From: a virus
Strand: one strand, 5' to 3'
Virus record (IMG/VR): IMGVR_UViG_3300042465_002291
Location: 1 to 25,962 of that record
Length of the DNA stretch: 25,962 bases
In this document: positions 3,527 to 7,264 of the stretch, piece after piece
Numbering within the stretch: position 1 is the stretch's first letter
Layout of the letters: every line of letters starts with the position of its first letter
The notes under the pieces: model-generated
What the model saw: the letters and a program-made list of their open reading frames with translations, nothing else
Databases searched by the model: none
What the model was told of the DNA's origin: nothing
Made by a program: the position numbers and the translations under genes

Positions 3527-3959
3527 GTGCTTTTAATTCCTCAAGTTTAGATTGTCGCTTAACTTCGGCAACACCTAGTCGTGTTCGATCTGTTGGCGTG
3601 AATCCTAGTAAGGAAAGATTTGCGACAAGTTGCCGATCTAGTTCACGCAACCCTTTACGCTCATCGGCGCGATTATTTTGCATTACTTGAATACGCAAGT
3701 TCCAGCGTTCATCTAATAGTTCGCAAGTCATAAGTAATAAATCTACGTCAGTTGTTGGACTAATCCAAGTCTGACCCATTCCCCATACGCGTTCCCATAA
3801 TTGTTTACCCGCGGTTAGTAAAGGTCTATGCGGTTCTGGAATCTCGTAGGCAGACGGCAACAAAACCATCTCGCCTTGTTTTGGTAATGCCCGCTTGCCA
3901 GGATTGCCAGTAATCCTTTTTTGTTCGGTTGGCTTAGGTGGTCTGCCGCGTGTCGCCAT
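3510..3959 (-). CDS. terS: Terminase small subunit (P27 family-like)
   Basis: 149 residues, highly basic N-terminus with the signature GRPPKPTEQKRITGNPGKR typical of phage P27-family small terminases, which recognise the packaging site and hand DNA to TerL. The rest is charged and helical (for example LWERVWGMG, LLLMTCELLDERWNLR), consistent with an oligomeric coiled helical core. ATG at 3959 is preceded by GAGG. It overlaps the cytosine methyltransferase end by 26 bases and TerL by 17 bases, so the modification module and the packaging genes are one translational chain. Confidence 0.9.
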   Translation of the reverse strand: MATRGRPPKPTEQKRITGNPGKRALPKQGEMVLLPSAYEIPEPHRPLLTAGKQLWERVWGMGQTWISPTTDVDLLLMTCELLDERWNLRIQVMQNNRADERKGLRELDRQLVANLSLLGFTPTDRTRLGVAEVKRQSKLEELKARASQN

Positions 3960-5022
3960 TTATAACCTCAAAAATTTCTTTTAACATTACATCACCCACT
4001 GCTTTATACATTAGCGGTGGAACTGATCTGCCAATTCTTTCTACTCTCTGAGCATACGATCCCGTGAGGATAAAGTCTTGCGGAAACGATTGGAATGCCC
4101 GTAATTCTTTTAGATTAAATTTTCTTTTTTCCGTAGGGTGACAAACCGATGCCGCGCCTACAACGCCTGCTGTTGCGGTAATTGTTCCAACGGGTTTATC
4201 TAATGCGGGTTTAACAAGTTGGAAATACTTTTCGGAACTCGATCCAATATTTGTTTTATCCCATTCATTGCCTACCGCGTAACGATCGAGAGATATATCA
4301 AATCCAGTTTCCTCATCTATGAAAACATTATTCTGTTCTATGATTTCAAGAACTGTGAACCTGCGGTTTTCTCTATTTGGAAATACTGGCTTAACATTAA
4401 ACTTTTCTACGAGATCATTTCGAACTCCCATAAAGATTAGCCGTTGCCTACCTTGCGGCACTCCTAAGTAACTTGCATCTAGTAACTTTGCCTCGACTTG
4501 ATAGCCGTTAGATTTAAGATCACGAATGATCTCTTTGAAATATCCAATGGCTTTTCCTTTTACTAATCCCGAAACATTTTCGGCAATAAATACTTTTGGA
4601 TATAACTCATTAACCAATCGGGAATACTCAAAAAATAAATCATCTGATCTTTGCGTTGAGTCTGAATATGTCTTGACTCTGCCCCAACCTTTTTCAACAA
4701 GGCCTGCGGTCGAGAAAGATGAGCAAGGTGGCGATCCCTCTAATAAATCTAGTTCGCCACGTTCCATCTTTATGTCTTTGAGAATGTCCGCGCCCGATAC
4801 GGTTCTAATGTCCTCGCCTGTAAGGATTACCCCGTTATGATTTTCGGCATAGGTATCTCGTGCGGCCTCGATAAATTCGTTTGCCCAAAGTACGTCATAG
4901 CCCGCCATCTCTAATCCAAGACACGCGCCACCGCAACCAGAGAAAGTAGAAACAACTTTGATTCCGTTAGTGCCTTTAACCTTTTGAATGTCAGCCATAG
5001 ACATTACAGAGTAGGTTGACAT
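3934..5022 (-). CDS. Cytosine-C5 DNA methyltransferase with Asn-to-Arg change in motif X (candidate carboxymethyltransferase)
   Basis: 362 residues with all core C5-methyltransferase motifs in order: motif I STFSGCGG (about 25-32) for cofactor binding; motif IV GSPPC with catalytic Cys100; motif VI ENV with Glu148; motif VIII QGRQR (190-194); motif IX around RAFQSFPQDF (308-317); motif X at 330-335. The family's motif X is normally GNSVP; here it is GRSVP with Arg332 (codon at 4029-4027, AGA). In M.HhaI the equivalent Asn304 lines the cofactor pocket near the transferred methyl, together with Gln82 and Tyr254; by my alignment those two positions are Ser101 and Thr284 here. An arginine beside the transferred group could pair with a carboxylate, so Cx-SAM may be the true donor. 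The target recognition region (about 200-280) gives no predicted site. It starts 1 base after the CmoA-like gene. It may instead be an ordinary or impaired methylase. Confidence 0.93.
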   Translation of the reverse strand: MSTYSVMSMADIQKVKGTNGIKVVSTFSGCGGACLGLEMAGYDVLWANEFIEAARDTYAENHNGVILTGEDIRTVSGADILKDIKMERGELDLLEGSPPCSSFSTAGLVEKGWGRVKTYSDSTQRSDDLFFEYSRLVNELYPKVFIAENVSGLVKGKAIGYFKEIIRDLKSNGYQVEAKLLDASYLGVPQGRQRLIFMGVRNDLVEKFNVKPVFPNRENRRFTVLEIIEQNNVFIDEETGFDISLDRYAVGNEWDKTNIGSSSEKYFQLVKPALDKPVGTITATAGVVGAASVCHPTEKRKFNLKELRAFQSFPQDFILTGSYAQRVERIGRSVPPLMYKAVGDVMLKEIFEVINGDTRQTT

Positions 5023-5023
5023 T

Positions 5024-5719
5024 TTATTTAATGCCGATCCACGCTGCGAAATTTAGATTCCGCCAGTAGCACTCTATGTGTTTGAATCCCGCTTGCTTTA
5101 GCATCTCAACATTCCAGTCTGCGGTTACGGGAACTAAGACACCCTCAAGTGATCTGCGCTTTGCCGTGATCTGATCTGTGCTGTATCCGTTCTCACCCTT
5201 GCGGTCATAATAAGTTTCGACTAGTAACCGATCACTAAAGGCATCTGCGCCTAATACTTTTTCAACTAATAAGAACGCACCGCCATCGATCGTATTGTCA
5301 TAGGCATTCTGGATAATTCGTTGACGATACTCAATCGGAATGAATTGCAAAGTTAGAACGGACAGAGTTACGGATGCTTGAACATTCGGATATAAATCTC
5401 TTAAATCCAAATCGACTATTTCGGCCTTGCCAGTTAATTCTTTTAACGCTGCCGCCCGCATTGGTTCGCTAACTTCAATGCCCAAAAAATTTAATTTCTT
5501 TTTAGTTGCTTCGATAATCGGCTTTAGTGCCGCGCCACGGGAGCAACCAAGATCAACTACATAAGTTCCATCCTGAATAAATCTCAAAGCCAACTCAGTT
5601 GTAGTTCGCCGCATTCCAAAGTAATCTGGGATCGATCGTTCTAACATATCGTCAAAGACAGCCGTGACTTCATTATTGAATTCCCATTTACCAATCGGCA
5701 TCGTTCGATCAGTAGGCAT
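5024..5719 (-). CDS. CmoA-like carboxy-SAM synthase homologue (class I SAM fold)
   Basis: 231 residues from the ATG at 5719, which overlaps the ParB-like stop as TAATG; a frame 7 codons longer exists but lacks a better start. It matches E. coli CmoA along its whole length: an N-terminal segment like GKWEFNNEVTAVFDDML, SAM motif I VVDLGCSRGAA (about 54-64), LTLQFIPIEYRQ (122-133), GGAFLLVEKV (146-155), NGYS (177-180), AKRRSLEG (186-193) and a C-terminal NLNFAAWIGIK. CmoA converts SAM plus prephenate into carboxy-SAM for tRNA wobble-uridine modification by CmoB. Arg188 aligns with CmoA Arg199, which contacts the Cx-SAM carboxylate. No CmoB partner is present; the adjoining gene is a DNA methyltransferase. 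It could also be a plain methyltransferase that has kept the fold. Confidence 0.85.
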   Translation of the reverse strand: MPTDRTMPIGKWEFNNEVTAVFDDMLERSIPDYFGMRRTTTELALRFIQDGTYVVDLGCSRGAALKPIIEATKKKLNFLGIEVSEPMRAAALKELTGKAEIVDLDLRDLYPNVQASVTLSVLTLQFIPIEYRQRIIQNAYDNTIDGGAFLLVEKVLGADAFSDRLLVETYYDRKGENGYSTDQITAKRRSLEGVLVPVTADWNVEMLKQAGFKHIECYWRNLNFAAWIGIK

Positions 5720-6219
5720 TATCGTGCCGCGCCATTCCATTCATAAGAACACTTAGGGCATTGAAACTTTGTTTCATCCGTATCATCGAAACTTGGAAAG
5801 TCTTTAAGCGGTGATTGTTCCTCTGTTGGCGGGTGCAGGGACTCAAAACCGAACTCTGAAAGTTCCCAACCGTTGGCATCTAATTCCAAAAGTTGTTCTT
5901 TCAGAATCTCTGTATCCCATTCGGCAAGTTCCGCGGTTCGATTATCCGCTAATGCGTAGGCCTTAATTTTTTCAAAATCCCAACCGACAGGTGTTCTTGT
6001 AATGACAATCTCTTGCCAACCAAGATTTAATGCGGCCTGTAAAGTTCCGTTGCCAGCAATAACAAAATTATCAGGCGTGACAATAATCGGTTTACGTTGT
6101 CCGAATAACTTTAGTGAGCCAGCAATTGCATCTAGGTTTTTCTTGTCGTGCTTTCTAGCATTGCTTGGATCAAGTTTCAATGTTTCAATTTTTACGGATT
6201 CAATACGCAGTTCATTCAT
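5719..6219 (-). CDS. ParB-like N-terminal-domain protein with C-terminal zinc ribbon
   Basis: 166 residues. The ParB/sulfiredoxin-fold domain is clear: LDPSNARKHDKKNLDAI (about 16-32), GQRKPIIVTPDNFVIAGNGTL (about 40-60) and ALADNRTAELAEWD (88-101). Such ParB-domain proteins are common beside phage DNA methyltransferases and may act as CTPase clamps, nucleases or DNA-binding targeting factors. The C-terminus has CPKC followed by an aromatic residue, half of a zinc ribbon. It is the first gene of the ParB-CmoA-methyltransferase module and starts 6 bases after a TATGCT -10-like element, so it may be translated from a leaderless mRNA, which is common in Actinobacteria. Confidence 0.85.
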   Translation of the reverse strand: MNELRIESVKIETLKLDPSNARKHDKKNLDAIAGSLKLFGQRKPIIVTPDNFVIAGNGTLQAALNLGWQEIVITRTPVGWDFEKIKAYALADNRTAELAEWDTEILKEQLLELDANGWELSEFGFESLHPPTEEQSPLKDFPSFDDTDETKFQCPKCSYEWNGAAR

Positions 6220-6392: not shown

Positions 6393-6710
6393 CTATGGAT
6401 TTGTGATTGGTTTGTTTCCTCGTGAGGCATTACATCTTGCGTGAGCAGGCATAAGGACAGACCCCTTGACCCCTGCAAGAACGTGGTCTGCTTGGATCTC
6501 AGATCGATCTGTAAACGGTTCGTTGCATAACCAACAATGTGTTGCAAACTCTTTAATAAGTTTTGCTTGTCGTTTGTAACTAGAGTCATAAAGAGTTCTT
6601 TGCGCTTTACGTGCCGCCACCTTGCTATCTACTATGGCTTGATGCTTTTCGCATCGTGATCCAAGTCTTGTTAGTTCACCGCACTCTAGGCAAGGTCTTT
6701 GGAACCCCAC
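6393..6710 (-). CDS. HNH endonuclease, small phage type
   Basis: About 105 residues from a GTG at 6710 that overlaps the stop of the Ntn-hydrolase gene as TAGTG and has GGAG 6 bases upstream; a 14-codon longer frame from an ATG exists but has no such site. It contains CLEC and a later C..H (zinc-type knuckle), then CWLC followed by ADHVLAG, and PAHARCNASRGNKP, the HNH beta-beta-alpha metal core (His of DH, Asn of CN, His of AH). HNH proteins beside terminase genes often assist genome end cutting during packaging. It is the last gene before the intergenic spacer that precedes the ParB/terminase operon. Confidence 0.85.
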   Translation of the reverse strand: MGFQRPCLECGELTRLGSRCEKHQAIVDSKVAARKAQRTLYDSSYKRQAKLIKEFATHCWLCNEPFTDRSEIQADHVLAGVKGSVLMPAHARCNASRGNKPITNP

Positions 6711-7264
6711 TAAGGACTCCGATAGGTACGGCCTGTGTGATCCGAAATCCATCTATCGATAGTGCCGCGTGTATTAGGATCGTGCATACTTGCTACCTGT
6801 GCCGCGTGTACCGCAGATAGATCGTGGTTCTTATACCAGTCAGGGTTGTATTGACTATGCGCTAGAACTCCAAGTGCTAAGTCTGCGCCTGATCCAATTG
6901 CCCAATAAGGTTCGGCAGATAACACGGATAGATTCTCGCTAACTAAGAATGACTTGCCGTGCGTTACAAGTAGGCACTCTGCATCCATCTCTGAGTCTTT
7001 GATCGTATCGTCAATCAACGTAATAACTTTAGTTACTATCCACTTCAACCATTCGCCAGACTTAACTACTTCAACTGGTGGCTTAGGGTATTCGATTGAA
7101 TACTGTAACTGATCGCATACTCTTGCGTTACCTGCGACACCGATTAACCAATTGTCTTGCTGAACTATCTTTGGCATATCAGGATGGATTAAGTCGCTTG
7201 TGATTCCACGGTCTGCAACTAAGGTTGCCGTGTTGTTTCCCGTAGTCGTGATGATCGTAGTCAT
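6710..7264 (-). CDS. HslV / proteasome beta-like Ntn-hydrolase
   Basis: 184 residues with the layout of HslV and proteasome beta subunits. Removal of Met1 would expose Thr (MTTI), the N-terminal nucleophile; Asp18 in VADRG corresponds to mature Asp17 of HslV; Lys32 (MPKIV) lies where HslV has Lys33; then IGVAGNA (41-47) matches the GxAG turn, and AIGSGADLALGVL (122-134) matches the GSG loop whose Ser/Gly help the active site. The length is close to HslV (about 175). There is no propeptide and no HslU-type ATPase in the window. Its role is unknown: it may work with a host unfoldase, process a virion protein, or be a non-proteolytic relative. It lies between two HNH genes and follows a 38-aa conserved-looking small gene. 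No clear ribosome site precedes it. Confidence 0.75.
   Translation of the reverse strand: MTTIITTTGNNTATLVADRGITSDLIHPDMPKIVQQDNWLIGVAGNARVCDQLQYSIEYPKPPVEVVKSGEWLKWIVTKVITLIDDTIKDSEMDAECLLVTHGKSFLVSENLSVLSAEPYWAIGSGADLALGVLAHSQYNPDWYKNHDLSAVHAAQVASMHDPNTRGTIDRWISDHTGRTYRSP

Follow-up and report, generated by a model that had tools for sequence, protein, structure and literature searches.

The window, i.e. the whole 25,962-base stretch of DNA analysed here, is the entire virus record IMGVR_UViG_3300042465_002291, and the genes identified in it lie on the minus strand. The features under study are a three-gene cassette and the packaging gene that follows it:

5719-6219, minus strand: first cassette gene, for a ParB-like protein (166 aa) that ends in a CPKC tail (best E 1.6e-35 among PHROG ParB-like families; TIGR00180, weak)
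5024-5740, minus strand: CmoA-like protein, a putative carboxy-SAM (Cx-SAM) synthase, 238 aa long or 231 aa with the start at 5719 (4gek; TIGR00740; phrog_4752, 4.6e-72)
5156-5158, minus strand: codon of CmoA Arg195, aligned to E. coli CmoA Arg199 (4gek alignment; PMC3663124)
3934-5022, minus strand: CmoX-like protein, a putative DNA cytosine C5-carboxymethyltransferase of 362 aa (PF00145; 8yf3; fold of the AlphaFold2 model)
4723-4725, minus strand: codon of the catalytic Cys100 in SPPC, an invariant alignment column
4027-4029, minus strand: codon of motif-X Arg332, equivalent to SpCmoX Arg350 and M.HhaI Asn304 (alignment; PMC12783734)
3510-3959, minus strand: terminase small subunit (PF25673, 1.1e-08)

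A preliminary description made from the sequence alone had proposed a tight operon of ParB-domain, CmoA-like and C5-methyltransferase genes; all three frames are present on the minus strand as it had placed them, and both junctions that it reported can be seen in the sequence. The CmoA-like gene has an alternative in-frame ATG at 5719, which creates a TAATG junction with the ParB-like gene, and the methyltransferase starts at 5022, one base beyond the stop codon of the CmoA-like gene. The last 26 bases of cmoX are shared with the gene for the terminase small subunit, and the packaging genes follow directly downstream of the cassette. On the upstream side, 6710-7264 (minus strand) encodes an HslV/proteasome-like peptidase (phrog_1040, 6.9e-21). 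The strengths of the matches and the neighbourhood survey described below rule out chance.

The methyltransferase carries the PF00145 domain over its length (E 1.7e-55). Of all solved structures, it matches 8yf3 best (6e-63, residues 20-351 aligned), far ahead of HaeIII in second place (2.9e-22), and it is homologous over its full length to SpCmoX, with 39% identity. An AlphaFold2 model, for which the input alignment combined the window protein with related loci, has a mean pLDDT of 88, and a fold search with this model again ranks 8yf3 first (Z 38.7, rmsd 2.4 over 319 residues), with the next chain at Z 32.2 and M.MpeI (4dkj) at Z 27.5. The catalytic residues Cys100 (GSPPC), Glu148 and Arg192/Arg194 are present. 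Motif X reads ERIGRSVPP, placing Arg332 where the usual residue is Asn; the GRSVP of the preliminary description is confirmed, and in the alignment Arg332 pairs with Arg350 of the CmoX structure 8YF3. Covariation of the Glu of ERxGR with the Arg was considered and rejected, as many Asn-type members keep ERxGN.

PDB 8YF3 is SpCmoX with Cx-SAM, where Arg350 contacts the carboxylate at the place of M.HhaI Asn304 (PMC12783734). This enzyme belongs to a natural CmoA-CmoX system of the Synechococcus phage S-B43, described by Yang et al. (Nat Commun, 7 December 2025; PMC12783734). Purified SpCmoA makes Cx-SAM; purified SpCmoX, of which the wild type accepts Cx-SAM as its only cofactor, writes 5-carboxymethylcytosine (5cxmC) in GC motifs, and DNA so modified resists HhaI in vitro; SpCmoY, an ATP-dependent amide ligase, then joins glycine to 5cxmC to give 5gcxmC (PMC12783734). 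The DNA of S-B43 itself contains the glycine amide only and no 5cxmC, and this amide is the only end product proven in a natural phage (PMC12783734). The same study considers that the system might also deplete SAM, and reports 5,615 CmoX candidates from IMG/VR, UniProt and MGnify, a collection filtered for the Arg, on whose contigs there are 4,257 CmoA, 2,251 ligases and 1,660 ParBc proteins (PMC12783734). It also names M.MpeI N374K as the engineered parallel of CmoX and states the equivalence of the two positions, as the preliminary description had supposed for the engineered M.MpeI pocket (PMC12783734). That description knew the activity only from engineering, and here it has been overtaken by the publication of S-B43, to which a literature search lying mainly outside subscription journals and preprints added no second paper on a natural case. 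Its pathway from Cx-SAM to 5cxmC has been demonstrated in the homologous S-B43 system, where, however, 5cxmC is converted further to the glycine amide by CmoY, the gene of which is absent from the window. By analogy with S-B43, the pathway reading is probably right, but it is not new.

The CmoA-like protein is matched over its full length by E. coli CmoA (4gek, 7e-31) and over nearly its whole length by Haemophilus YecO (1im8). Its TIGR00740 score (2.1e-43, 148.7 bits) falls below the equivalog cut-off of 193.3, which was set for the bacterial tRNA-pathway enzyme, and we claim no membership in that equivalog. In the 4gek alignment Arg195 occupies the column of E. coli CmoA Arg199, which holds the Cx-SAM carboxylate by a salt bridge (PMC3663124); the similarity to CmoA that had been noted from the sequence, including the carboxylate-binding Arg, is borne out by these matches. 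SpCmoA, whose activity has been proven biochemically, is likewise a divergent phage enzyme, and the window protein is homologous to it over its full length (31% identity). SpCmoA and a relative (L023:4437-5132, L026:5306-6001) have no Arg199 equivalent in the alignment, SpCmoA carrying a Glu, and the activity of SpCmoA is reported to exceed that of E. coli CmoA. Arg199 as a strict requirement was rejected, because the proven SpCmoA aligns Glu in that column. As for CmoB, which the preliminary description had found missing, PF08003 has no match in the record (G000), in its twin genome (G001, 31,536 bases) or in the relative G005.

The linkage of CmoA and CmoX, adjacent in the window with a one-base gap, is kept in relatives. 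Searches with single proteins yielded too few loci for a test (13 and 8), and the survey relied instead on profile searches that could not see motif X: loci were gathered from viral contigs and from one genome per prokaryote species with queries and patterns that leave out motif X, and profiles for CmoX, CmoA, CmoY and ParB were then run on all of their frames. For the main count, loci were dereplicated at 90% identity and had to be flanked on each side by 2.5 kb or more; those found through CmoA were excluded. In this set CmoA is a neighbour in 61 of 62 Arg-type loci and in none of the 25 Asn- or Met-type loci, and the lack of co-occurrence that would have counted against the preliminary description is not seen. 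The lone Arg-type exception (L234) has a ligase and no CmoA within 8 kb. When loci found through CmoA are included the counts become 62/63 and 0/25 (Fisher p 4e-21, a value that ignores kinship among the loci). With this correlation, likely users of Cx-SAM and likely users of SAM in the CmoX family can be told apart by sequence.

A quick tree, built with the motif-X column left out, places a clade of Asn-type phage enzymes within the Arg-type family, with moderate support. Its members, including L181, L184, L169, L157 and L121-L132, have no CmoA and have kept ParB. The position of this clade suggests a return to SAM use accompanied by loss of CmoA. Changes in motif X and in CmoA agree in the two to three independent pairs where CmoA differs, which is too few for a significant pairs test. 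A sister clade from Bacillota and Bacteroidota (L236-L261, L263, L265, L267 and L268) has Met in motif X (GMSVPP); ParB is often its neighbour, CmoA in no case. Bacterial genomes, too, hold Arg-type CmoX together with CmoA, namely L228 (Hymenobacter), L197 (Nonomuraea), L212 (a Scytonema plasmid) and L205-L225 (Verrucomicrobia MAGs). Where inspected, the neighbours of these loci are phage-like (in L228, for instance, CmoX is followed by a terminase-like gene), and the loci are therefore probably prophages.

The ParB-like protein shows a different distribution. It is found beside Arg-, Asn- and Met-type enzymes alike, and for this reason was rejected as a marker of carboxymethylation. Of 153 ParBs encoded next to methyltransferases of the CmoX family, 150 end in a CPxC tail, whatever the motif-X residue. 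Judged from these neighbourhoods, the ParB-like protein is a partner of the methyltransferase family and not of carboxymethylation as such. The CPxC tail (window 5719-6219, L004, L213, L246 and others) resembles half a zinc ribbon.

The window encodes two WhiB-family regulators (PF02467; 8636-8974 and 11949-12290, both on the minus strand), and WhiB proteins are typical of actinobacteria and their phages. Among isolated phages the terminase is closest to that of Pontimonas phage phiPsal1 (MG835450; 55.5%), and Pontimonas is a member of the Microbacteriaceae (PMC6106888). The host is likely to be an actinobacterium of the Microbacteriaceae, an assignment made from this nearest phage. CmoA is absent from 149 of 150 genomes of this family, and the single positive genome is a Microbacterium MAG that itself holds a CmoX; its CmoA is 52% identical to that of the window. 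In this MAG (L199/L272) CmoX and a ligase are on one contig and CmoA on another. With CmoA missing from nearly all genomes of the likely host family, the phage would have to bring one itself.

We consider it very probable that the cassette is a CmoA-CmoX DNA carboxymethylation system of an actinobacterial phage. Its genes and residues, the modelled fold and the co-occurrence are observed directly, and both activities are assigned by analogy to S-B43. The CmoA-like enzyme would convert host SAM and prephenate into Cx-SAM. The CmoX-like enzyme would flip a cytosine out of duplex DNA, Cys100 would attack its C6, Arg332 would bind the carboxylate of Cx-SAM, and transfer of the carboxymethyl group to C5 would yield 5cxmC at a short motif. 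As the phage has no amide ligase, the end product is probably 5cxmC itself, and the modified base would protect the phage DNA from host nucleases.

It is possible, if rather doubtful, that the pair makes 5cxmC as an intermediate only, and that a ligase encoded outside the record, by a missing piece of the phage or by the host, turns it into an amide. Such a route would resemble S-B43, whose DNA shows the amide alone, and the relatives L004, L042 and L044 do carry a ligase in the cassette, and the relatives G002 and G003 have a PF00733 ligase. In L004 and L044 it is encoded between ParB and CmoA, two genes that overlap in the window. Against such a route, PF00733 (the asparagine-synthase-type ligase) matches nothing in the window, the 31.5-kb twin G001 or the relative G005. 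A tblastn search with six ligases found no remnant either, although ligases of other families would escape this test. The twin is near-complete but not closed, and includes the protease, capsid and glycosyltransferase genes that the window lacks; compared with the complete phiPsal1 it has the same order from glycosyltransferase to capsid and seems to lack just a short piece at the glycosyltransferase. Furthermore, 38 of the 62 flanked Arg-type loci (about 60%) have no ligase nearby, and published counts also leave more than half of CmoX candidates without one (PMC12783734); the ligase-free form of the Arg-type cassette is common. As CmoY is not found in the window, we do not file it as a 5gcxmC system. 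The glycosyltransferases of the twin were considered as hypermodifying enzymes and judged unlikely, phiPsal1 having such genes there without CmoX. At L032:8076-9797 the twin also encodes a Peptidase_S78 prohead protease, the N-terminal part of which weakly resembles HAD phosphatases (4.9e-6). On balance we lean slightly towards the joint proposal that in this phage lineage 5cxmC, with its free negative charge, would be the finished base and not a handle for an amide, and that the Asn-type clade would have reverted and lost CmoA, so that the cofactor switch would have run in both directions.

Very little weight is given to the view that the methyltransferase is an ordinary SAM-dependent enzyme, and that the CmoA-like protein serves tRNA or lowers host SAM. 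The C5-methyltransferase domain is typical, the CmoA-like protein scores below the TIGR00740 cut-off and SAM depletion has been raised as a side effect (PMC12783734), all of which this view would accommodate; but Arg332 lies at the Cx-SAM-binding place, and wild-type SpCmoX, which has this Arg too, works with Cx-SAM alone (PMC12783734). Nor is CmoA ever found beside the Asn- or Met-type relatives, and a role in tRNA is hard to reconcile with a phage that has no CmoB and a likely host family that has no CmoA. That the cassette is decayed or inactive is more improbable still, given that its three frames are intact and its catalytic residues present. Moreover, CmoX and CmoA of the twin are 98-99% identical to those of the window, against 82-95% for DNA elsewhere in the two genomes, and this higher conservation suggests selection for function.

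If the favoured reading of the cassette as a carboxymethylation system holds, its presence in an unrelated small actinophage supports the view that phage 5cxmC systems are widespread and do not require a host CmoA, and there would be no simpler natural source than the ligase-free cassette for 5cxmC DNA and for a DNA carboxymethyltransferase that uses Cx-SAM. Its closest functional model is the CmoA-CmoX-CmoY system of S-B43, with which it shares neighbouring CmoA and CmoX homologues, the motif-X Arg and the association with ParB, noted in PMC12783734 for 1,660 contigs. The two differ in that S-B43 has CmoY and the window has no such ligase, in that a ParB-like gene heads the cassette only in the window, and in their genomes, that of the window phage being small (about 31 kb) and actinobacterial and that of the cyanophage S-B43 214 kb. 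The target-recognition region of the window CmoX also differs from that of SpCmoX, and thus a GC motif cannot be assumed for it. Streptomyces phage TurkishDelight (NC_073473) resembles the window in having ParB, CmoX (46% identity), CmoA and an actinobacterial host, but its CmoX and CmoA genes are separated by one for a glutamine-amidotransferase/asparagine-synthase-type ligase. The phage phiPsal1 (complete, 31,069 bp) has a similar gene order to the window but no ParB-CmoA-CmoX cassette. M.MpeI N374K shares a basic residue at the same motif-X position and the use of Cx-SAM (PMC12783734); it is an engineered CpG enzyme with Lys, whereas the window enzyme is natural, has Arg and comes with a dedicated CmoA. 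With the bacterial CmoA/CmoB pathway for tRNA cmo5U the window shares a Cx-SAM synthase homologue and the Arg199 equivalent, but it has no CmoB, and the carboxymethyl group would go to DNA.
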